This document shows, piece by piece, positions 239 to 8,317 of a stretch of 20,331 nucleotides of DNA. The stretch spans positions 1 to 20,331 of IMG/VR virus record IMGVR_UViG_3300035670_001478; one strand, 5' to 3'. Position numbers and translations under genes: made by a program. Within the stretch, counting starts at the first letter, position 1. Each line of letters begins with the position of its first letter. This stretch comes from a virus. The notes below the pieces were generated by a model. That model was not told the origin of the DNA. It saw only the letters and a program-made list of their open reading frames with translations, and ran no database searches.

Positions 239-281
239 CCGACGAACGGTAGTTGACGGGGGTTTGATTCGGGTGCAGAAT
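239..281 (+). promoter_or_regulatory. CCGACGAACGG module, copy 1
   Basis: The 11-mer CCGACGAACGG sits at 239-249, just past the terminator. TTGACG (253-258) and CAGAAT (276-281) are spaced by 17 bases and could be -35 and -10 boxes. The interval from the 11-mer to the -10 is 26 bases, one more than in the other three copies, and its -10 differs from theirs. This is therefore the most diverged member of the family. Confidence 0.5.
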
Positions 282-294
282 GCATGAAAAAAGT

Positions 295-332
295 CTGATT
301 TATTAGCAAAATCAGTAGGTTAGTGGTAAAAT
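295..332 (+). promoter_or_regulatory. Inverted repeat and extended -10 before the gene at 354
   Basis: CTGATTT (295-301) and AAATCAG (309-315) form a perfect 7-bp inverted repeat around a 7-base centre. Twelve bases later TAAAAT (327-332) is preceded by TGG, giving an extended -10 box. The inverted repeat covers the -35 region and so is well placed as an operator. It could alternatively be a leader hairpin if transcription starts from copy 1 of the module upstream. Confidence 0.4.
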
Positions 333-353
333 CATCAACACGAAAGGGGAAAT

Positions 354-755
354 ATGACACACGATATAGACGAAGATCGCGCAGAGTTTGATGCGTGGTG
401 GGAAGAGCATGGCTTAGGTGGCTACGAATCTCAGTTCGAGGCATGGCAAGCAGCGCGCCGCGCTCCAGCAGCACCAGTGCCGCAGGGGTGGAAGCCGGTG
501 CCGGTTGAGCCAACTAAAGAAATGGTCCAGCGGGCCTGTGACGACCACGGCTACCCCGGAGGGTCTAGATGGGTATACCGAGCTGGCTATCGGTCTATGC
601 TCGCCGCCGCGCCCCAGCCACCAGAGGCAGCGCCTGTGGAGTTGCCGGAATACGGCATCGACACAGCAAACCACGCCGGCATTCGTGTGCGTGGCTACAC
701 CGAGCAGCAAGTGCGCGAGCTGCTGGCAGCTCAGGGAATCAAGGTAGTGCCATGA
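354..755 (+). CDS. Hypothetical phage accessory protein (133 aa)
   Basis: The 133-residue acidic, tryptophan-rich protein starts FDAWWEEHG and continues FEAWQAARRAP, QGWKPVPVEPTKEM and YRAGYRSMLAAAP. I recognise this patchwork from small early accessory proteins of many temperate phages, where its function is unknown. The ATG is preceded by AAGGGGAA (344-351), complementary to the TTCCCCTT motifs of the candidate RNA at 160-236. It is the first gene of a chain running to the terminase small subunit and overlaps the next gene by four bases. A proline/alanine-rich linker lies around residues 35-45 and again near 85-95. There are no membrane segments or catalytic motifs. Other ORFs over this interval are shadows. 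Confidence 0.75.
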   Translation: MTHDIDEDRAEFDAWWEEHGLGGYESQFEAWQAARRAPAAPVPQGWKPVPVEPTKEMVQRACDDHGYPGGSRWVYRAGYRSMLAAAPQPPEAAPVELPEYGIDTANHAGIRVRGYTEQQVRELLAAQGIKVVP

Positions 756-967
756 CCAAGAAAGAAAAGCGCCCAATCTGGAAGTACGAGGCGCTATGCA
801 TCGCAGTAGAGTACGTGCTGAAGAACGAAGGCCCTCACACGTACAAACAACTCTCAGAACGAATCGGAATCAACCTGGCCGCGCTCGGCCCAGTCCTGCG
901 CAACATGACTTCCAGCGGGAAGATTGAGGCAAGCGGCTGGCCTAAAATGTACAGCGCGACCGAGTGA
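752..967 (+). CDS. Small winged-helix-like DNA-binding protein (71 aa)
   Basis: The ATG at 752 overlaps the previous stop (ATGA), which favours it over a longer reading of the same frame that begins at 569 inside the upstream gene. The 71-residue product begins MTKKEKRPIW. Residues about 14-66 read as helix, HTYKQLSERIGIN helix-turn, LAALGPVLRNMTSSGKIEAS recognition helix and wing, then a GWPKMYSA strand. This is the layout of a minimal winged-helix domain. In phages such proteins are usually transcriptional regulators, so it is a candidate for binding the repeated 11-mer operators of this region; that link is inference. It has no other domain. Confidence 0.75.
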   Translation: MTKKEKRPIWKYEALCIAVEYVLKNEGPHTYKQLSERIGINLAALGPVLRNMTSSGKIEASGWPKMYSATE

Positions 968-983
968 AACACAGGAGGATGGA

Positions 984-1223
984 ATGAAGCAAGAGCAAGT
1001 GATTGAGTTGGCAAAGAAGGCAGGATTTGGCAACTATGCATATGAAGCCGCTGGAATCTTTAAGATTTTTGCCGATGCTGTTGAGCAAGATGCTATTGGA
1101 AAAGCAATCGATGCTCTAAACAGAATAGAAGAGGAAGAGCCAGATGAAGATTGGCGACCAGGATACCCATCCAACGCTTTGCAACAACTTCAAGAAAGAA
1201 TGCGAAATGACACAGCCAATTGA
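984..1223 (+). CDS. Small phage protein, 'AxxAGF' family (79 aa)
   Basis: The start is set by a strong AGGAGG (973-978) five bases before ATG 984; the same frame is open upstream but has no ribosome site there. The protein opens with VIELAKKAGFG, a helix-Gly-Phe signature shared with the products at 1207 (ALKIAREAGF) and 7474 (VIRMAREAGL). These look like members of a widespread small phage family found in beta-proteobacterial phages, function unknown. Its acidic stretch IEEEEPDED lies near residues 48-56. It overlaps the next gene by 17 bases. Confidence 0.72.
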   Translation: MKQEQVIELAKKAGFGNYAYEAAGIFKIFADAVEQDAIGKAIDALNRIEEEEPDEDWRPGYPSNALQQLQERMRNDTAN

Positions 1224-1443
1224 CGCGCTCAAGATTGCGCGAGAAGCAGGTTTTTTAGTCGTAGGTAATCGGGCTACTACCTGGGGACGAAGCGAGGACT
1301 GCGCTGCTGAACTAAATATGCTTGCAGCGCGAATTCTGGAGCGTGCCGCCATCGAGTGCGAGCAATCCGAAGCCTTCCGAGGTTCGGTGTTCGCGCAGCG
1401 CATCCGGGCGTTGAAGCCAGTATTGGAAAAGGACAACACATGA
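1207..1443 (+). CDS. Small phage protein, 'AREAGF' family (78 aa)
   Basis: ATG 1207 lies inside the end of the preceding gene and gives MTQPIDALKIAREAGF, which aligns with the N-termini of the products at 984 and 7474. A longer form from ATG 1144 would lie almost entirely over the upstream gene and is less likely. The middle contains LAARILERAAIECEQSE, like the 'LVAxxEREACAxxxE' segment usual in this family, and the end is QRIRALKPVLEK. No enzymatic motif is visible. Four-base ATGA overlap with the next gene supports co-translation. Function unknown. Confidence 0.7.
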   Translation: MTQPIDALKIAREAGFLVVGNRATTWGRSEDCAAELNMLAARILERAAIECEQSEAFRGSVFAQRIRALKPVLEKDNT

Positions 1444-1628
1444 CACAGATTCAACTGACAACGCGCGAGGCGGTGGAGGAAGCGCTAGAGGCTCTCAACT
1501 ACCGGCACGAAACAGCCAGGACAGATGAAAAACAGGAAAAGACACTGAAGGCAGCTCAGCTGATCTGCGACCTCTACGGCTTCAAGCTGGAGCAGTTCTT
1601 TGGCGAGGAAGTGGAGGATGTGACATGA
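1440..1628 (+). CDS. Hypothetical protein (62 aa)
   Basis: ATG 1440 overlaps the previous stop by four bases. The 62-residue product is highly charged and predicted mostly helical (TREAVEEALEALNYRHETARTDEKQEK, then LKAAQLICDLYGFKLEQFF). I do not recognise it. A good GGAGG lies at its very end (1613-1617), eight bases before an ATG at 1625, and appears to serve the next translation start rather than this gene. Confidence 0.65.
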   Translation: MTQIQLTTREAVEEALEALNYRHETARTDEKQEKTLKAAQLICDLYGFKLEQFFGEEVEDVT

Positions 1629-1648
1629 CAGATGGATGGGATGGATGA
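1625..1648 (+). CDS. Possible 7-codon minicistron coupled to terS
   Basis: ATG 1625 overlaps the previous stop (ATGA) and is ideally spaced from GGAGG 1613-1617. It encodes only MTDGWDG before a TGA at 1646-1648 that overlaps the ATG at 1645. The best ribosome site in the region therefore serves this tiny frame rather than the terminase small subunit. It may deliver ribosomes to terS by stop-start coupling, or it may be accidental. Confidence 0.3.
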   Translation: MTDGWDG

Positions 1649-2271
1649 TGACGCCAGAACAGACTGAATTGGCATCGCGGTTAAACCAGATGCAGATAGA
1701 CACCGTATTGGGTGTTGTGGCCGGGAAAACTCAGCGCCAAGCGTACATTGATGCTGGAGGAAAAGGATCAACAGAAAAATCCATTGACGCCGCAGCTTCA
1801 AAACTTTTAAGTTTGGATAAGGTTCGTGCCTTTTATGACTCACTGGTCAGTAACGCCGCCACAGATGCCGTTATGACGCGCTCAGAGGCTCTAGAACGGC
1901 TTTCTTTGATGGGCCGCACCCGTATCACAGACATCGTTGAATTTGAGACTGTAGAGGTTTCTGCGGTTGATCCAAAGACCGGCGAGGATGTGAAGAAAAC
2001 GGAAACCATCTGGCGAATCAAGGAAAGCGCAGAACTGAACGAGCTGGCAGCGTCGGCCATCAAGTCTGTGACGATGACGAAGTTCGGGCCGAAGATTGAA
2101 ATGCACGATGCTGCAAGTGCAATCGCGCAGATGTCCAAGATGCAAGGATGGGATGCGCCAAACAAGGTGCAGGTATCTGGCGACCCTGATAACCCAGTGG
2201 TGTCTGTCACGCTTGGCAAGGAAGAGTACAAGGCCGCTCGGGCGGAGATGATGAAAAGCGATGATGTGTAG
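1645..2271 (+). CDS. terS: Terminase small subunit
   Basis: This is the DNA-recognition subunit of the packaging motor: it binds the pac/cos site and loads the large subunit. The N-terminal part (LNQMQIDTVLGVVAGKTQRQAYIDAGGKGS) matches the helix-turn-helix of the Terminase_2/XtmA type. It is followed by a helical segment and the typical LERLSLMGRTRITDIVEF stretch. The C-terminus carries the SVTMTKFGPKIEMHDAASAIAQMSKMQGW segment, which I recognise from this family. Candidate starts are ATG 1636, 1645 and 1648. I prefer 1645 because it overlaps the TGA of the minicistron, whereas 1636 has no close ribosome site. A terminator follows directly. Unusually, terS is separated from terL by a Rha gene and two terminators. 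Confidence 0.88.
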   Translation: MMTPEQTELASRLNQMQIDTVLGVVAGKTQRQAYIDAGGKGSTEKSIDAAASKLLSLDKVRAFYDSLVSNAATDAVMTRSEALERLSLMGRTRITDIVEFETVEVSAVDPKTGEDVKKTETIWRIKESAELNELAASAIKSVTMTKFGPKIEMHDAASAIAQMSKMQGWDAPNKVQVSGDPDNPVVSVTLGKEEYKAARAEMMKSDDV

Positions 2272-2293
2272 CCCTGGCGCAGGAGCAGCAAAG

Positions 2294-2320
2294 ACCACCT
2301 ACGGGTGGTTTTTTGTTTTG
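2294..2320 (+). terminator. Intrinsic terminator after terS
   Basis: ACCACC (2294-2299), loop TACG, GGTGGT (2304-2309), then TTTTTGTTTT. It closes the 354-2271 operon 20 bases after the terS stop. Confidence 0.9.
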
Positions 2321-2370
2321 TAGTGGTGTAAAATACAACCGCCAGCGCAATGCTGGTGAATAACCTAAAG
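2321..2370 (+). promoter_or_regulatory. Candidate promoter and structured leader of the Rha gene
   Basis: TAAAAT at 2329-2334 follows TAGTGGTG, similar to the TAGTGGTAAAAT at 321-332 before the first accessory operon. A hairpin of seven pairs including one G-T wobble (2340-2346 with 2352-2358) lies in the leader. An AACC/GGTT pair around AAAGGG (2362-2367) could hide the ribosome site. No clear -35 box is seen. Confidence 0.4.
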
Positions 2371-2380
2371 GGTTTTACAC

Positions 2381-3037
2381 ATGACCAACGAAATATCTGT
2401 ATCCACATTTTCCGGTGAGCTTCGTGCAGACTCCCGATCATTTGCCCCCAAGCTAGATGTTCGTCATCGTCAATTGATGGATAACATCTACAAGTACCAA
2501 GAGAAATTCGAGGCGCTTGGACTTCTTCCGTTTCAAACGGAGGCAGTGGAAGGGGAAGGATATCGCGGGGTGAAGTACGAAAAGTACGCACTTCTAAACG
2601 AGGACCAAGCGTATTTTCTGCTTACACTTAGCCGAAATAGCGAATCAGTGGTTAGCGCAAAGTTTGCCTTGGTTCAAGCATTCAAGAAGGCGCGCGCGCA
2701 AATCGCACGCACTGAGGTGGCGAGAATCGAGGGGAAAAAGGCGCGAATCGAAGAAACAGATTCGATCAAAGAGCTGGTGCAATACGCTACAGACCAAGGC
2801 AGCACGAATGCCAAGATGTACTACGTGAGCATCACTAAGATGACCAATCAAATCCTTGGTATCGAGGCAGGGCAGCGGGATAAGTTGCCGGCGGCTATTT
2901 TGGACAAGATACGACTTGCCGAAACCATGATCGATGTGACGCTTCGTGATGGAATGCGCGCTGGTTTGCATTACAAGCAAATCTACGAACTGGCGAAAGC
3001 CAGGGTGTTGGCGCTTGTGCCGTTGCTGCCAAAATAA
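2381..3037 (+). CDS. Rha-family phage regulatory protein
   Basis: The 218-residue protein has the Rha/pRha layout in its first half: DSRSFAPKLDVRHRQLMDNI near residues 17-36, then a short basic segment, YALLNEDQAYFLLTLSRNS (about 68-87) and VVSAKFALVQAFKKAR (89-104). These are the hallmark segments of this family, first described in lambdoid phages, where Rha affects phage development and interferes with growth in some hosts. The second half (about residues 105-218) is a separate helical domain with TNAKMYYVSITKMTN and KLPAAILDKIRLAETMID, resembling the C-terminal parts of other phage anti-repressor/Rha-like proteins. It is a single-gene unit between two terminators with its own promoter-like region, so it is likely controlled apart from its neighbours. 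The Shine-Dalgarno is AAAGGG. Confidence 0.82.
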   Translation: MTNEISVSTFSGELRADSRSFAPKLDVRHRQLMDNIYKYQEKFEALGLLPFQTEAVEGEGYRGVKYEKYALLNEDQAYFLLTLSRNSESVVSAKFALVQAFKKARAQIARTEVARIEGKKARIEETDSIKELVQYATDQGSTNAKMYYVSITKMTNQILGIEAGQRDKLPAAILDKIRLAETMIDVTLRDGMRAGLHYKQIYELAKARVLALVPLLPK

Positions 3038-3046
3038 CTGGCAAGC

Positions 3047-3064
3047 TGCCGCCACAAGGCGGTG
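3047..3064 (+). other. Hairpin in the rha-terL gap
   Basis: CCGCC (3049-3053), loop ACAA, GGCGG (3058-3062), extended by two G-T wobble pairs. There is no T-tract, so it is not a terminator by itself. It may stabilise the rha transcript 3' end together with the terminator 45 bases further on. Confidence 0.5.
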
Positions 3065-3106
3065 GGCGCTGAACTGGTTTCCCGCCGAGCTAATACCACA
3101 CCACAT

Positions 3107-3131
3107 CCCGCCATGAGCGGGTTTTTCCTTT
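3107..3131 (+). terminator. Intrinsic terminator between rha and terL
   Basis: CCCGC (3107-3111), loop CATGA, GCGGG (3117-3121), then TTTTTCCTTTT. The T-tract runs directly into the terL promoter. Confidence 0.85.
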
Positions 3132-3146
3132 TGTTATCATCGATTC
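3132..3146 (+). promoter_or_regulatory. Extended -10 promoter giving a leaderless terL mRNA
   Basis: TGT plus TATCAT (3132-3140) is an extended -10 box. The six bases to the ATG at 3147 put the expected transcription start on the A of the start codon. No Shine-Dalgarno is visible upstream. The same spacing recurs before the gene at 8669. Confidence 0.5.
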
Positions 3147-4616
3147 ATGCAAGGAGCCACAATCACCGACCCTATAACCTTCGCGCGCAAGCTGGAGTGT
3201 GAAGAGGACGGGCTGTATTTCTCAAGATACTTCTTCAAGCAGCGCATGGGCGCAAAGATGATCGTGGCACCTCACCACACGGTTATCCAGAAAACACTGG
3301 ACCGCGTGCTGAGTGGTGAGATCAAGCGGTTAATCATTAACGTGCCTCCGGGCTACACCAAAACAGAGCTTGCGACCATCAACATGATCGGGCGCGGCTT
3401 GGCGTTGAATGCTCGGGCGCGTTTTCTGCACCTGTCCTACTCTCACGACCTGGCGTTGCTGAATAGCTCTACAGCGCGCGCCATGGTGAAGTCCAAGGCT
3501 TACCAGTCGATGTGGCCTATGGCCCTCAAGGATGACGCTGACAGCAAGTCAATGTGGTGGACCGAGCACGGCGGCGGTGTGTACGCCACATCATCCAAGG
3601 GCCAGGTGACGGGATTTCGCGCTGGTCACATGGAGCCAGGATGGAACGGCGCGCTTCTGATTGACGATCCAGTAAAGCCAGACGACGCATTTAGCGAACT
3701 GGTACGCGACGGGGTGAACAACCGCTTCAATGAAACGATCAAGAGCCGCCTAGCAATCGAGGCCACGCCGCTGATCGTCATCATGCAGCGCATCCACTAC
3801 AACGACCTAAGCGGCTATCTGTTGAGAGGCGGAAGCGGTGAGAAGTGGCACCATCTAAATCTGCCTGTCATCATCGACAACAGCGCGCCATATCCCGAAG
3901 AAAACACCCACGGCATACCAATCGCACATGGTTTGACTGATGGCTGGCTGTGGGAGTACAAGCACAACGAAACGCACCGCGTGGCGCTTACATCGCACCG
4001 CCGTACGTTCCAAGCGCAGTACATGCAGAACCCGCCAAGGTTCAATGCAGAAGGCGCGCTATGGTCCGACAAGATGATTGCCGCCGCGCGTGTGCTGGAG
4101 ATAATCCAGAAAAAGCAGCGCACGGTTGTGGCGATTGACCCCGCCGTCAGCACCGAAGAAAAAAGCGACGAAAGCGGGATTGTGGTCGCATCATCCTACG
4201 GCGTTGGCGATTCGCGCCAGTTTTCCGTGGACGGTGACTACTCCGGGAAATACTCGCCCGCAGCCTGGGCAAAAAAGGCAATGTTTGCCTATGAGCAGCA
4301 CAGCGCAGACGCAATTGTGATCGAAACCAACCAGGGCGGCGACATGGTGGAGGACACGCTGCGCAATGCCGGGTTCAGAGGGCGCGTCATCCGGGTTCAC
4401 GCCAGCAAGGGCAAATACGCGCGCGCAGAGCCTATTTCCGCGCTGTACGAACAAGGCCGCGTGCGCCATAACGGCAATCTGTACGAGCTAGAGAATCAGT
4501 GCATGGAATACGTGCCATCCACCGCAAAGAAGTCCCCAGACAGGCTAGACGCGCTTGTGTGGGCAATCACCGAGCTATCAGGCGGCACCGCAGTCGGCAT
4601 CCTCCTGCGCAGATAA
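3147..4616 (+). CDS. terL: Terminase large subunit (ATPase and nuclease)
   Basis: This is the motor that pumps DNA into the prohead and cuts the concatemer. At 489 residues it has the usual length. Walker A-like PPGYTKT is at residues 67-73 and Walker B ALLIDDP at 169-175. A motif III-like segment TPLIVIMQR is at 207-215. The RNase H-fold nuclease has its acidic residues in AIDPA (D331), VIETN (E393) and RLDALVWA (D468). The conserved N-terminal segment DGLYFSRYFFKQRMG is present, so a start at or close to ATG 3147 is required. No ribosome site precedes that ATG. An AAGGAG inside the gene (3151-3156) sits five bases before an ATC codon at 3162, a less likely alternative start. It stands between a terminator and an accessory block rather than beside the portal gene. 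Confidence 0.95.
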   Translation: MQGATITDPITFARKLECEEDGLYFSRYFFKQRMGAKMIVAPHHTVIQKTLDRVLSGEIKRLIINVPPGYTKTELATINMIGRGLALNARARFLHLSYSHDLALLNSSTARAMVKSKAYQSMWPMALKDDADSKSMWWTEHGGGVYATSSKGQVTGFRAGHMEPGWNGALLIDDPVKPDDAFSELVRDGVNNRFNETIKSRLAIEATPLIVIMQRIHYNDLSGYLLRGGSGEKWHHLNLPVIIDNSAPYPEENTHGIPIAHGLTDGWLWEYKHNETHRVALTSHRRTFQAQYMQNPPRFNAEGALWSDKMIAAARVLEIIQKKQRTVVAIDPAVSTEEKSDESGIVVASSYGVGDSRQFSVDGDYSGKYSPAAWAKKAMFAYEQHSADAIVIETNQGGDMVEDTLRNAGFRGRVIRVHASKGKYARAEPISALYEQGRVRHNGNLYELENQCMEYVPSTAKKSPDRLDALVWAITELSGGTAVGILLRR

Positions 4617-4628
4617 GCGGCAAGAAAA

Positions 4629-4670
4629 CCGACGAACGGTCATCGCGCATGGCCGGGCCTGGGGTACATT
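4629..4670 (+). promoter_or_regulatory. CCGACGAACGG-N25-TACATT promoter module, copy 2
   Basis: The 11-mer at 4629-4639 is followed after exactly 25 bases by TACATT (4665-4670), a plausible -10 box. No -35 box is seen at the normal place; the 11-mer is centred near -43, as in class II activator sites. The expected start near 4677 would give a 27-base leader for the gene at 4704. Confidence 0.6.
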
Positions 4671-4703
4671 AAACACATCGCAGCAACAAACCAAGGAATA
4701 ACA

Positions 4704-4874
4704 ATGGAAGGAATGCCAACCGTCACAACCGTCTACGACCAGTCAGCAGATGGAAAGTGGTTCATGAGCTTCACAATCCACGGCATGACGACCGAAGAGC
4801 AGGCGATTCGCGCGCAAGAGTTGCTGTTGGCATACGTATGCGCCGGAGAGATCAGCACAAGCCAAAAGCAGTAA
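4704..4874 (+). CDS. Small hypothetical protein (56 aa)
   Basis: This short gene lies behind promoter module copy 2, with AAGGA (4693-4697) before ATG 4704. It encodes 56 residues. The N-terminal half looks like a beta-hairpin (VTTVYDQSADGKWFMSFTIHG) and is followed by a helix TTEEQAIRAQELLLAYV. I do not recognise the family. It is alone between terL and the structured RNA region, so it forms a one-gene unit. Codon pattern and ribosome site support real coding, but its short length limits confidence. Confidence 0.62.
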   Translation: MEGMPTVTTVYDQSADGKWFMSFTIHGMTTEEQAIRAQELLLAYVCAGEISTSQKQ

Positions 4875-4914
4875 ATGGCCGCTGCTGAGATCGGAAAGCT
4901 GATGGCGTAGTTAT

Positions 4915-4928
4915 GCTATACTTGGCGC
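4915..4928 (+). promoter_or_regulatory. Extended -10 before the candidate pseudoknot RNA
   Basis: TGC plus TATACT (4915-4922) is an extended -10 box with the same hexamer as the promoter at 148. Transcription would start near 4929-4930, just before the first arm of the folded RNA. No -35 box is evident. Confidence 0.45.
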
Positions 4929-5030
4929 TGTCGGAGTAGGAACCGATAGTCAGTGAAAGCCATTTCTCATGCATCCGCCCTCATTCTTGGGGGTTCCTAC
5001 CGGGTGCAGCAGAAATGGCTTTTTTGCTTT
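4929..5030 (+). ncRNA. Candidate structured RNA with interleaved helices (pseudoknot or switch)
   Basis: Two perfect helices are interleaved. GTAGGAACC (4936-4944) pairs with GGTTCCTAC (4992-5000) over 9 bp. AAAGCCATTTCT (4956-4967) pairs with AGAAATGGCTTT (5011-5022) over 12 bp. The 12-bp helix is topped by GCATCC (4971-4976) with GGGTGC (5002-5007), and a T-tract follows it. The order A-B-A'-B' is that of a pseudoknot in which the 5' tail pairs with the loop of the terminator hairpin. It could instead be a choice between two folds. It might be a free small RNA of about 100 bases, or an attenuator ahead of the structured region and the membrane-protein gene at 5414. No match to a named RNA family is recognised. 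Confidence 0.5.
4956..5030 (+). terminator. Long-stem intrinsic terminator
   Basis: The 12-bp stem 4956-4967/5011-5022 leads into six T residues (5020-5025) and GCTTT. The loop is long (43 bases) but partly closed by an inner stem. Confidence 0.65.
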
Positions 5031-5035
5031 CAGTT

Positions 5036-5402
5036 CCACAGCATCCCCAAAGCCAGAGAGGGACAGCTAGTAATCCAAGCACTAGCGATGCAGCCGACTT
5101 GATGATGCCAGTGCCGCATGACACCGCCGTAACATCATCGAGAGGCAACGGGGGAACCTTCCCAAGCCAACGCGCAAAGAGTCGTCCGAAAGGATGTGCA
5201 GCAACCGCGAGAAGGGGCGCATACAAGGCGCGTAATGCTGCAAACTGTCACTCTTGTATTGATGACAGTCCGATGATTTCCGAAGGTTTGTCCGCACTGG
5301 GTAACTTTAGAAGTCCGGCATAAGACTAAGACCACTTCTCTAGGTGGCTCTTAGGAGAGTTATGCCGATTCATAACCGAGGTTGAACCGCTTGGGTTTAG
5401 AT
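5036..5402 (+). ncRNA. Gene-free stretch with many potential RNA helices
   Basis: No convincing gene lies here. Complementary pairs visible in order: 5066-5071/5081-5086 (6 bp); 5098-5107/5133-5142 (10 bp with one wobble); 5183-5187/5192-5196 closing a GAAA tetraloop; 5217-5220/5228-5231 (4 bp); 5244-5250/5263-5269 (7 bp); and a composite hairpin 5317-5366 built from 5317-5323/5360-5366, 5326-5331/5349-5354 and 5332-5335/5344-5347. A last small stem at 5385-5388/5394-5397 lies just before the ribosome site of the gene at 5414. The density suggests a folded RNA or a long structured leader. A decayed region is the other possibility. No named family is recognised. Confidence 0.4.
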
Positions 5403-5413
5403 AAGGGGAAAAC

Positions 5414-5821
5414 ATGGCAATATCACCTGCAATCATGGTAAGCAACACATCCGGAGGCGCATCGTCGAACAATGCGCTGCACAAGGCGCTAGTCGAGGCG
5501 CAGTGCAATCTGTGGATGGAGCATTACAAGCACTCAACGGCTACTGTTGAGCAAAAGCAGTTCTATGCTTCTTGCGTGCGGCAAATCCACCCGATCCAGT
5601 CACCATCACCGACGATAGAGGCAAAGATGGCTGTGGGCGCGATCTTGGTGCTGGCCTTGCTGTGCATTGCAGTATCTGGATACAAGACCAAAAAATCACT
5701 AGGCAGCTTCTTTGGTGTGGCAGAGTGCATCGGAGCGGTGGTTTTCGGCTTGATTGCGTGGCTAGTGATCCTGTGTGCCGTCGGCCTTGTGATATGCGCG
5801 TTTAAATTTTTCACCGCCTAG
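5414..5821 (+). CDS. Small membrane protein with two transmembrane segments (135 aa)
   Basis: The ribosome site is AAGGGGAA (5403-5410), the same unusual site as the genes at 354 and 5891. The first 70 residues are soluble, with AQCNLWMEHYKHSTATVEQKQFYASCVRQIHP as a likely helical region. Two hydrophobic segments follow at about 73-90 and 105-131, joined by a short basic loop (YKTKKSLGS). It is cysteine-rich, with six cysteines. The topology could suit a holin or a superinfection-exclusion protein, but no family signature is recognised and the position is far from any lysis genes. Its stop codon abuts promoter module copy 3. Confidence 0.7.
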   Translation: MAISPAIMVSNTSGGASSNNALHKALVEAQCNLWMEHYKHSTATVEQKQFYASCVRQIHPIQSPSPTIEAKMAVGAILVLALLCIAVSGYKTKKSLGSFFGVAECIGAVVFGLIAWLVILCAVGLVICAFKFFTA

Positions 5822-5863
5822 CCGACGAACGGCACTTGCCAATCCTAGCCACTGTGGCACATT
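5822..5863 (+). promoter_or_regulatory. CCGACGAACGG-N25-CACATT promoter module, copy 3
   Basis: The 11-mer (5822-5832) starts at the base after the previous stop codon. CACATT (5858-5863) follows after exactly 25 bases. The start expected near 5870 would leave about 21 bases before GTG 5891. Confidence 0.6.
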
Positions 5864-5890
5864 AGAGGCACTGAAACGAAAGGGGAAACA

Positions 5891-6049
5891 GTGAAATACA
5901 TTTACGCATCAGCAACAGTCATATTGGCATTATTTCTTGCTGTACTTTTGTTTGACGCTAATCCAAAGCAAGCCATGTTTCTGTCACTTCTCCAGTTGGG
6001 CGCAATCCTACTTGTGTGGATCTTTGAAGAAGCAAAGGGGGATAAATGA
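5891..6049 (+). CDS. Very small membrane protein, GTG start (52 aa)
   Basis: The frame opens with GTG five bases after the AAGGGG core of AAGGGGAA (5880-5887) and behind promoter module copy 3. It ends with a four-base ATGA overlap with the H-NS-like gene. The 52-residue product has two hydrophobic helices, about 4-21 (IYASATVILALFLAVLL) and 29-45 (MFLSLLQLGAILLVWIF), with a short polar turn FDANPKQA and an acidic-basic tail. It has no recognised family. Promoter, ribosome site and overlap together make it a credible gene even though it is short and begins with GTG. Confidence 0.65.
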   Translation: MKYIYASATVILALFLAVLLFDANPKQAMFLSLLQLGAILLVWIFEEAKGDK

Positions 6050-6315
6050 AAACCTACCAAGAGTTGATCGTAGAGCGCGCCGAGCTAGACGCGCGCATTC
6101 ACGCAGAGCGCAAGGTTGCGAAGCGTGAGCTAAAGAACCAGATGCTTGTGATGATCCACGATGCTGGATTCCAAGCTGATGATTTCTTCAAGGCCACCAA
6201 GGAAGTGCGCGCAAAAGCCAAGCCAAAGCACCTGAACAGCAAGACAGGCGCGACGTGGTGCGGGCGCGGCAAGAAGCCTTTGTGGATCGGCACAGACGTG
6301 CATGTTGTTTTGTGA
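6046..6315 (+). CDS. H-NS-like nucleoid-associated protein (89 aa)
   Basis: H-NS proteins bind AT-rich DNA and silence foreign genes. The C-terminal residues 62-80 (HLNSKTGATWCGRGKKPLW) follow the pattern N-x-x-T-G-x-T-W-x-G-R-G-x-x-P-x-W typical of beta-proteobacterial H-NS relatives (Bv3F/BpH3 type), with W-C-G-R-G as the DNA-contacting loop. Residues 1-36 form a helix rich in E, R and K (ELIVERAELDARIHAERKVAKREL) suitable for dimerisation, and residues 51-61 are a basic linker. At 89 residues it is slightly shorter than typical family members. The usual serine in W-S-G-R-G is a cysteine here. It is co-transcribed with a tiny membrane protein. Likely roles are silencing of phage or host genes, or interference with host H-NS; which one is inference. 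Confidence 0.82.
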   Translation: MKTYQELIVERAELDARIHAERKVAKRELKNQMLVMIHDAGFQADDFFKATKEVRAKAKPKHLNSKTGATWCGRGKKPLWIGTDVHVVL

Positions 6316-6324
6316 GGTGACGAT

Positions 6325-6756
6325 ATGACAATGACATTCAAAGAGGCGCTGATCGCGCACTTGCAGGGTAAGAAGGTACAGGCACGACTGCCAGATAGTG
6401 ATACCTCTGGAGATTGGGACGATTTTGTTGATAAAAATGGAAGCTGGAACTACAACGATGACTGGAAGCTTTGCTTGTTGAATGGTGATTTTGATGGGTA
6501 CGCTTGGGAATTCCGCATCGCGCCGCGCACGATCCTGGTCAACGGCGTGGAGGTGCCAGCGCCGGAGAAAGATGCACCGGCAGACGGTGCGGAATACTTT
6601 GTGCCTCAGTTTTTAGACATAGGTGCATATGAGGCGTTATATTGGAAACAAGATGAGCTGGACGCCAGATTACTGGAGCGTGGCCTTGTCTACCTTGACA
6701 AAGCATCTGCCATTGCGCGTGCCAAGGCCATGCTAATCACGCAGGAGGTTAAGTGA
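6325..6756 (+). CDS. Hypothetical phage protein (143 aa)
   Basis: The start is set by GAGGTGACG before ATG 6325. The first half (TFKEALIAHLQGKKVQARLPD, then W/D-rich GDWDDF, WNYNDDW, YAWEFRI) and the second half (APRTILVNGVEVPAPEKDAP, GAEYFVPQFLD, LLERGLVYLDKASAIARAKAML) match a common two-part architecture of uncharacterised accessory proteins in tailed phages. The pattern suggests a small beta-rich fold followed by a helix. No catalytic residues are recognised. Its TGA overlaps the ATG of the next gene by one base, with GGAGGT ahead, so the pair is translationally linked. Confidence 0.75.
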   Translation: MTMTFKEALIAHLQGKKVQARLPDSDTSGDWDDFVDKNGSWNYNDDWKLCLLNGDFDGYAWEFRIAPRTILVNGVEVPAPEKDAPADGAEYFVPQFLDIGAYEALYWKQDELDARLLERGLVYLDKASAIARAKAMLITQEVK

Positions 6757-7097
6757 TGAGCACTGAGAAAGAGCTGATGAAGCTGGTGGCCGACTATGGC
6801 AAGGAGTGCATTTCGGCTGGCATTGCAGAGCTAAACAGCAGCGATGATGTGAAGCAACGCATGGCATCCGATGTACGCAAGTCGCATGATGCGCTGACAG
6901 CACGCCTGCGCGCCATTCTGACCGAGCTGGAGGCAGCGCGCGAGGATGTGGCGCTTGTAGACTGGCTGGAGCAATCCAAGGAACATCATGGGTTTTGCGG
7001 CACCGGCTACGGAGAATATCGCTACTATGCTGGTCAATGTGATGGCTGGGGTTCTGTCAGGAAAGTAATCGAGGCCGCGCGCAAGGGGGAAGCATGA
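6756..7097 (+). CDS. Hypothetical phage protein (113 aa)
   Basis: ATG 6756 is preferred over an in-frame GTG one codon earlier because GGAGGT (6744-6749) is well spaced and the TGATG overlap is typical. The product is mostly helical, with a long amphipathic stretch DDVKQRMASDVRKSHDALTARLRAILTELEAAREDVALVDWLEQ of coiled-coil type. A glycine/aromatic-rich end follows (GFCGTGYGEYRYYAGQCDGWGSVRKVIEAA). That second part resembles short 'D..L..W...' segments in other phage accessory proteins. Function unknown. Overlaps the NinX-like gene by four bases. Confidence 0.72.
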   Translation: MSTEKELMKLVADYGKECISAGIAELNSSDDVKQRMASDVRKSHDALTARLRAILTELEAAREDVALVDWLEQSKEHHGFCGTGYGEYRYYAGQCDGWGSVRKVIEAARKGEA

Positions 7098-7477
7098 CCA
7101 TCATCAAAACCGAACACCTGACAGGTGCGCAGCTCGACTGGGCTGTGGCAAAGGCTGAAGGCATCGCAACCATTCAGTGCCTGCCTAACAAATACCCGCA
7201 CATCGTGCGCCGTGCTGACAACGGGAAGAACTGGCACCCCAGCACAGGATGGACCCAGGGCGGCCCGATCATCGAGCGTGAAGGAATAAGTGTCAGCCGT
7301 TTTAACGACGAGTGCATTGATGTGACAGAGTCCTGCCGCTGGTTTACTAGCACGAAGAACGGAGACTGCTGTGACGAAAACGCAAAAATGGGACCAACGC
7401 CGCTGATTGCCGCAATGCGCTGCTTTGTTGCTGCGAAGCTGGGCGACAGTGTTGACGTACCGGAGGAGTTGGCATGA
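7094..7477 (+). CDS. NinX-like protein, DUF2591 family (127 aa)
   Basis: The signature segments of this phage family are present in order: LTGAQLDWAVAKAEG (residues 9-23), WHPSTGWTQGGPIIEREGIS (47-66) and GPTPLIAAMRCFVAAKLGD (101-119). The family is common in P22-like and other temperate phages, where its biochemical role is unknown. Length is normal. The ribosome site is AAGGGGGAA, and the gene is coupled by ATGA overlaps to both neighbours, so it belongs to the operon that starts at 5891. I am confident of the family but not of any function. Confidence 0.85.
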   Translation: MTIIKTEHLTGAQLDWAVAKAEGIATIQCLPNKYPHIVRRADNGKNWHPSTGWTQGGPIIEREGISVSRFNDECIDVTESCRWFTSTKNGDCCDENAKMGPTPLIAAMRCFVAAKLGDSVDVPEELA

Positions 7478-7872
7478 ACCGAGACGACGTTATCAGGATG
7501 GCGCGCGAGGCTGGTCTTTCCTGGGATATGTGGAGAGGTGGTTATTTCGTAGATAAGCACAAGTCTGGAGAGCAGGTATTGATCCAATTCGCCGCGCTGG
7601 TGGCCGTTGAAGAGCGCCGCAAGCATCAGGCCGACATTGAGCACTGGAAGGCTCAAGCCGCGCAGGCAGAGAAGTGGCGCGCGTTGGCTTTGTGCAAAGA
7701 ACCAATGCAACCCGGAAAGGTTGTGCAGGAAATCCAGCGCGAGGCCATGGAGCTAGAGCGAGAGGCGTGTGCACAAGTGGTCGATGCCAAGGAGAAATCC
7801 ATCTATCTCTGGACCAACACCACCTATTTGATTGAGTGCGCGGCCGCCATCCGAGCGCGAGGCAACCAATGA
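7474..7872 (+). CDS. Phage protein of the 'MAREAGL' family with extended C-terminus (132 aa)
   Basis: The N-terminus NRDDVIRMAREAGL and the later QFAALVAVEERRKHQ form the pattern typical of a small phage protein family, related in their first residues to the proteins at 984 and 1207. A central helix of coiled-coil character follows (ADIEHWKAQAAQAEKWRALALCKEP). Then comes a second copy of the family's 'ELEREACAQVVDA' element near residues 90-102, and a short AAAIRARGNQ end. The two 'E-R' elements suggest that the protein grew by internal duplication or insertion. Function unknown. Four-base overlaps on both sides. Confidence 0.72.
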   Translation: MNRDDVIRMAREAGLSWDMWRGGYFVDKHKSGEQVLIQFAALVAVEERRKHQADIEHWKAQAAQAEKWRALALCKEPMQPGKVVQEIQREAMELEREACAQVVDAKEKSIYLWTNTTYLIECAAAIRARGNQ

Positions 7873-7940
7873 CAGCAACCAACATAGCCCGCATGCTCCG
7901 CATCACAGCAGAGCACCTAGGGCTTGAAAAAAACCGATGA
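7869..7940 (+). CDS. Possible micro-ORF (23 aa) ending inside promoter module copy 4
   Basis: ATG 7869 overlaps the previous stop (ATGA) and encodes MTATNIARMLRITAEHLGLE plus three residues. Its TGA (7938-7940) lies inside the 11-mer operator, exactly where this copy has T instead of C. The product is helix-like and basic. It may be a real translated peptide or only a coupled read-out; length is too short to judge by codon use. Confidence 0.4.
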   Translation: MTATNIARMLRITAEHLGLEKNR

Positions 7941-7975
7941 ACGGTATTGCCCGCTTCTCTGAGGTGGGCTACATT
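7934..7975 (+). promoter_or_regulatory. CCGATGAACGG-N25-TACATT promoter module, copy 4
   Basis: The 11-mer (7934-7944) differs from the others by one base. TACATT (7970-7975) follows after exactly 25 bases. Transcription near 7982 would start 15 bases before ATG 7997. Confidence 0.6.
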
Positions 7976-7996: not shown

Positions 7997-8317
7997 ATGA
8001 GCACATATAGCAAAGCAAAATTCACTCAGGGGCCTTGGGCGATTGAGTATGACAACTGCGACGCTGGCACTTGCCAGTGGTATTCGGTTGGGCCTGCAAA
8101 GGTCGAAGTCTCTTATAACTTAACAGCATTGCAGGATGATGAGTGGAAAGCCAACGCACGCCTGATCGCCGCTGCTCCGGAGCTGCTGGAGGCTTTGCAA
8201 GAATGTGTAGAGCTTCTAGAGTTTTTGTCGCCTGAAGTTCGCGGAGGCTATTCGCCAGATGGGGCTTATGCCAAAGCTAATTCAGCCATCGCCAAAGCAC
8301 TAGGAGGCGCAGCATGA
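7997..8317 (+). CDS. Hypothetical phage protein with 'ANARLIAAAPELLEAL' motif (106 aa)
   Basis: The N-terminus KFTQGPWAIEYD and the central ANARLIAAAPELLEALQECVELLE (about residues 50-74) are the two conserved blocks of a very common small phage protein whose function is unknown. The ribosome site is AAAGGGGATAG, matching seven bases of the TTCCCCTT motif of the candidate RNA at 160-236. It is the first gene behind promoter module copy 4 and is followed by two more genes in ATGA overlap. Two cysteines (DAGTCQW, LQECVELL) are present. There is no sign of membrane insertion. Confidence 0.8.
   Translation: MSTYSKAKFTQGPWAIEYDNCDAGTCQWYSVGPAKVEVSYNLTALQDDEWKANARLIAAAPELLEALQECVELLEFLSPEVRGGYSPDGAYAKANSAIAKALGGAA

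Follow-up and report, generated by a model that had tools for sequence, protein, structure and literature searches.

A putative AlgR-type LytTR box adjoining the -35 element of phage promoters, with anti-CRISPR operons among the genes behind it

The core published for sites of AlgR, a response regulator of the LytTR family, is CCGTTCGTC, and at the algD promoter of Pseudomonas aeruginosa the site RB3 (CCGTTTGTC), at -45 and in the opposite orientation, contributes to activation (accessible part of the review PMC4064291). LytTR sites consist of 9-bp direct repeats, mostly with 12 bp between them, a short distance upstream of the -35 element; examples are the LytTR Regulatory System promoters of Streptococcus mutans and other bacteria (PMC6193735); the word phage is absent from the available text of that paper. 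The anti-CRISPR (acr-aca) promoters of P. aeruginosa phages have so far been described by the inverted repeats of Aca repressors, and the word activator is absent from the available part of one such study (PMC9410906). Here we describe four promoter modules in a 20,331-base viral fragment (IMG/VR record IMGVR_UViG_3300035670_001478; the whole stretch is hereafter called the window), each carrying a box, CCGACGAACGGT or a close variant, immediately upstream of the -35 element. The sequence features presented below suggest that these modules are probably sigma-70-type promoters with a host AlgR-type LytTR site placed against the -35 element, which would be activated on infection.

The 11-mer CCGAYGAACGG is present exactly four times in the window, at positions 239, 4629, 5822 and 7934, only on the plus strand and only in intergenic regions. 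With up to two mismatches allowed, 10 sites in total were found, which is the chance level. The pattern CCGAYGAACGG-N(24-27)-YACATT matched only at 4629-4670, 5822-5863 and 7934-7975, with an interval of 25 bases in all three cases and no match in 100 shuffles, which confirmed the three intergenic modules described in an initial annotation of this DNA. The copy at 239, which had been regarded there as more diverged, is actually the best promoter of the four: box 1, an exact CCGACGAACGGT at 239..250 on the plus strand, is followed by a core promoter at 253..281 with the -35 element TTGACG (253-258), a 17-bp spacer and the -10 element CAGAAT (276-281), the full arrangement being CCGACGAACGGT-AG-TTGACG-N17-CAGAAT. 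Among the four copies, this is the only one detected by a consensus promoter scan of the window. The arrangement of copy 1 provided the key that the box stands 2-3 bases before the -35 element. If transcription is assumed to start about 7 bases past the -10 element, the box spans about -49 to -38, in the same orientation as algD RB3. The earlier proposal of promoter modules with an activator-type box centered near -43, ahead of accessory genes, is supported, and the box abuts the -35 element at a fixed phasing, as in class II activator-dependent sigma-70 promoters.

The composite, CCGACGAACGGT-N2-TTGac-N17-TATAAT, recurs far outside the window phage. Its 19-base core CCGAYGAACGGTAGTTGMC was found in 36 stretches on 31 contigs of a viral collection, as compared with none for the reversed control. 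The notion of a phage-specific regulon in the initial annotation is not supported, since many phages unrelated to one another carry the composite. Bacterial and archaeal genomes totaling 257 billion bases contained five stretches. Two of these (L246 and L248) look viral, with multiple boxes on short metagenome-bin contigs; the other three have one box each. A second scan, with N2 free and the -10 element required, yielded 63 viral stretches, and the 11-mer matched 71 times in 25 carrier records versus twice for its reversed control; an initial wide pattern (gap 15-40) gave mostly chance matches among those listed. The set of sites analyzed comprised 119 unique sites from 76 loci, with near-identical flanks removed and the window sites counted in; L247, L249 and L250 were left out beforehand as isolated matches. 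The interval from the box to a good -10 element peaked at 25-26 bases, a peak that carries the caveat that one of the two scan patterns itself demanded roughly such a spacing, and TTGA was present at +3 past the 11-mer in 62 of the 119 sites, partly as an effect of selection. Among 32 sites chosen by neither scan pattern, the 12th base was T in 29 and the 13th was A in 25. An open reading frame (ORF) start with a sequence resembling a ribosome-binding site was located 30-220 bases downstream of 82 of the 107 sites with enough flank, as compared with 289 of 1070 random positions. Location inside an ORF (66/107 sites, 874/1070 controls) was not used as evidence, because spurious ORFs, which arise in GC-rich DNA, make this measure imprecise. 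Taken together, a composite of fixed geometry exceeds in viruses both the reversed control and bacterial genomes, and this putative promoter is widespread in many unrelated phages. In the leaders behind the box in L234, L243, L244, L248, L275, L279 and L297, a G+C-rich CGCCTCGG...AGGGGC element is frequent, possibly a hairpin immediately upstream of the ribosome-binding site.

On the opposite strand the box reads ACCGTTCGTCGG, which includes the exact AlgR core CCGTTCGTC. Within the window, this core, GACGAACGG on the plus strand, is present at boxes 1-3 (positions 241, 4631 and 5824), with no other copy on either strand, and box 4 has GATGAACGG at this position, one base off. LytTR sites follow the pattern [TA][AC][CA]GTTN[AG][TG], and the box fits it. 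Transcription of algD needs the alternative sigma factor AlgU; in the phage promoters, by contrast, the boxes are of sigma-70 type and their spacing is fixed. RB3 of algD resembles the phage box in its core (one base different), its reverse orientation, its center near -45 and its position adjoining the core promoter, whereas algD also requires two far-upstream AlgR sites (PMC4064291, accessible part). The LytTR Regulatory System promoters share the close upstream position and the repeat geometry but differ in having another core, usually about 10 bp from the -35 element and on the other strand, and in serving host-gene autoregulation (PMC6193735, available part). The accessible portions of PMC8041468 and PMC6610081 yielded no AlgR motif letters, and GACGAACGGTAG, a piece of the motif, had as its sole match in the literature covered a paper on RsmN (PMC3791407). 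Host AlgR or a close LytTR relative is the likeliest regulator, and AlgR-type binding to the box is likely.

The LytTR geometry of 9 + 12 bases predicted a period of 21 bp for paired boxes, which was then tested. A scan for two perfect boxes at a period of 20, 21 or 22, run without any promoter condition, gave 37 stretches with 38 pairs, and all 38 pairs had a period of 21 bp, pointing to a LytTR-like regulator. Among the 119 unique sites, an upstream partner (up to four mismatches) was present at offset 21 in 11, as compared with at most three at each other offset from 12 to 62. XylS/AraC activators also use 21-bp tandem repeats and overlap the -35 region, so that a different host protein, such as an activator of this type or another LytTR regulator, might bind the box in place of AlgR. 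The G+C content of the carrier stretches (0.39 to 0.70) makes diverse hosts probable, as this alternative would allow; blastn host typing of the low-GC carriers gave weak and mixed matches. We nevertheless regard it as unlikely, as the box includes the exact published 9-bp AlgR core, matches algD RB3 in position and orientation, and fits the LytTR pattern.

A second alternative, to which we attach a similarly low probability, is that the box is bound by a phage-encoded regulator, that is, a window protein, the product of another gene of the window phage, or a phage-borne LytTR protein. The initial annotation had nominated the 71-residue protein at 752, Rha (2381) and the H-NS-like protein (6046), and these window-encoded candidates are not supported: none has a LytTR domain, Pfam names only Rha and the H-NS C-terminus among them, and a PF04397 search of the window proteins (G000) gave no match. 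The window is a 20,331-base fragment, so that a gene elsewhere in its phage could still encode a regulator. Among 50 boxed records, the window included, the LytTR domain (PF04397) was found in two, with no match in the other 48. The two positive carriers are prophages encoding a 111-residue LytTR protein without a receiver domain (P0001), which in a 96-residue alignment shares 33% identity with the LytTR domain of an AlgR-like protein; its relatives are encoded in 52 viral loci, which favors a phage regulator. This protein, however, does not travel with the box: around the 52 LytTR genes, the box core (up to one mismatch) matched 23 times versus 79 for the reversed control. It could possibly act as a mimic or competitor of host AlgR. 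A search of solved structures with the phage LytTR protein gave no match, and in that with the AlgR-like protein the receiver half was matched among the matches listed. The gene for the 111-residue protein lies at L304:1459-1791, and several such prophages share contigs with relatives of the window terminase.

A shared phage gene was also considered as the source of the cognate regulator, and clustering of the ORFs of 45 loci revealed no family common to all carriers in the fragments compared. The clusters included a family read as terminase (10 sources) and small helix-turn-helix proteins (8 sources), the latter a point in favor of a phage regulator, as they are encoded close to boxes in eight of the carriers compared. 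Small XRE-type helix-turn-helix proteins of Aca-like size were noted on the box strand in L218, L220, L221, L225, L234, L244, L246 and L248. Inheritance of the box with structural genes was likewise rejected, since no exact 12-mer with promoter was seen at the loci of the 66 relatives of the terminase (L145-L210), each covered for up to 10 kb on either side; contig 2617271009_000005 (L147) has one outside the compared terminase stretch (L253).

Motif queries without flanks against 50,697 phage records matched eight, namely six Pseudomonas phages and two copies of Phobos, whose genus also includes a Pseudomonas phage. The E-values were weak (5 to 8) because the queries had only 17-19 bases, and none of the eight matches lay under an annotated feature. 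Nine Pseudomonas records were matched when a P. aeruginosa promoter served as a further query, a result biased by the flanks that this query contains. In uligo, a T7-like phage (Autographiviridae), boxes are present at 460 (two mismatches) and 750, ahead of the first annotated gene at 1022, and the left ends of T7-like phages are read by the host polymerase. The rarity of LytTR proteins in the boxed phages, the matches to Pseudomonas phages and the left end of uligo favor a host protein acting immediately after entry. A Burkholderiales bin with a boxed contig encodes LytTR response regulators. The nearest relatives of the window terminase include those of Pseudomonas phages (80% identity) but also of Klebsiella and Cronobacter phages (78-79%).

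The -35 element differed between paired and single boxes. TTG was located 1-3 nucleotides past the box in 5 of 27 pairs versus 31 of 44 single sites (Fisher p 2.5e-5, a value that ignores shared ancestry), the single sites being non-index matches, of which 13 come from one contig and three from the window. A weaker -35 element where there are more sites is what an activator predicts, and in window copies 2-4 an activator-type site adjoins a weak -35 element. In three pairs, a strong -10 element was found at 34 bases, which we interpret as an alternative layout, the -35 element lying about one helical turn further on. That the box is instead a repressor site closing the promoters under host control, for instance in a lysogen, is very improbable: AlgR also represses host genes (PMC4064291 and PMC9600179, accessible parts) and strong cores are frequent in single-box promoters, but pairs go with weaker -35 elements, the opposite of what a repressor needs, and the box lies upstream of the core promoter and not over it.

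Anti-CRISPR genes are among those behind the box. In phage BUCT566, the first gene behind it encodes AcrF2 and is followed by a regulator; in MPK9 the first gene is annotated as a putative AcrIF7; and on a P. aeruginosa plasmid, AcrF1 is encoded first behind a box that has one mismatch. Several acr-aca promoters have the box directly upstream of the -35 element. Phage VB_EV13, whose terminase is 80% identical to that of the window, also has the box, which is thus present in cultured relatives of the window phage. Among 77 first genes, seven Pfam families were found with one gene each (AcrF2, AcrF1, YuA gp49, WYL_2, DUF6847, SprT-like and MerR DNA-binding), two of them anti-CRISPRs; NCBIfam named one gene, and the PHROGs families were mostly of unknown function. 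The four first genes of the window, which belong to this set, had no anti-CRISPR match, those of the set being AcrF2 and AcrF1 only. In phage KP1 (L316, record 34877-36348), no genes are annotated in the region behind the box and promoter, and this region likely contains unannotated early genes.

The most probable mechanism is that the box, read on the minus strand, is the target of an AlgR-type response regulator (LytTR family) of the host. Host AlgR, present before infection, would bind it and recruit RNA polymerase; promoters whose -35 and -10 elements are poor, such as window copies 2-4, could thereby fire without any phage protein and at once after entry. In other phages, another box stands upstream at a distance of exactly 21 bp (two helical turns, as for a LytTR dimer) and would allow a weaker -35 element to suffice. 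The modules may drive short accessory or early genes, including anti-CRISPR operons in P. aeruginosa phages.

Several observations weigh against this AlgR-based mechanism. Many single-box promoters have near-consensus -35 and -10 elements, for which no need of an activator is expected. All four window boxes are single, like most sites, although LytTR regulators usually bind pairs: no window promoter has a second exact box, and allowing up to four mismatches revealed no upstream partner for any window site. The AlgR core is not exact in box 4, and T is absent from position 12 of box 3. No LytTR protein was found in bin G054 (1.2 Mb), which has a boxed contig. The composite is present in 3 of 114 gammaproteobacterial genomes, about the chance level, so that hosts themselves do not use this exact arrangement. 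Other P. aeruginosa acr promoters (L302, L303) are without the box, which is therefore no general part of acr promoters. E. coli is not known to have an AlgR orthologue. The acr-aca promoters have been described as constitutive, and in one study every such promoter examined was active in E. coli (PMC9410906, available part).

Promoters arranged in this general way are known; virus-wide use of the arrangement, including in anti-CRISPR operons, would be new. No report of the motif, or of AlgR in connection with phages, early promoters or anti-CRISPRs, was found in the literature covered, which leaves out most subscription journals. Whether many phage families run immediate-early and anti-defense genes, anti-CRISPRs included, from AlgR-optimized promoters seems to us an evenly balanced question; this would constitute a virus-only signature tying counter-defense to host physiology, usable to find anti-defense genes. 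If the AlgR-based mechanism is true, the box would serve as a simple sequence marker of early and counter-defense genes in environmental phages. The mechanism would also account for the immediate switch-on of weakly promoted phage genes with no phage protein involved, and would tie the production of anti-CRISPRs to AlgR. Since AlgR reportedly contributes to the repression of CRISPR-Cas in P. aeruginosa (accessible part of the review PMC10013973), one host regulator could then both lower defense and raise counter-defense.

The remaining features of the window are as follows, all on the plus strand. The gene behind promoter 1 is located at 354-755, and a second promoter-like site, TTAGCA-N18-TAAAAT, is present at 303-332 between them. 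The initial annotation saw no good -35 element in copies 2-4, which is correct for copy 2 and not for copies 3 and 4, where it is partial. Box 2 (CCGACGAACGGT, 4629..4640) lies 12 bp past the ORF of the terminase large subunit, and core promoter 2 (4643..4670) has the weak -35 element TCGCGC, a 16-bp spacer and the -10 element TACATT (4665-4670), ahead of a gene at 4704-4874. Box 3 (CCGACGAACGGC, 5822..5833), whose 12th base is C where T is usual, immediately follows the stop codon of the ORF 5414-5821; core promoter 3 (5836..5863) has TTGCCA, a 16-bp spacer and CACATT (5858-5863), and is followed by genes at 5891-6049 and 6046-6315, the latter H-NS-like with an H-NS C-terminal domain in Pfam. 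Box 4 (CCGATGAACGGT, 7934..7945) matches the LytTR pattern as ACCGTTCAT, and core promoter 4 (7947..7975) has TTGCCC, a 17-bp spacer and TACATT (7970-7975); the gene behind it (7997-8317) matches phrog_1273, of unknown function. An Rfam search of the whole window gave no match, including in the long stretch between annotated-size ORFs at 4875-5413. This stretch contains an inverted pair of arms, GAAAGCCATTTCT and AGAAATGGCTTTT, and possibly represents a small RNA or broken genes.

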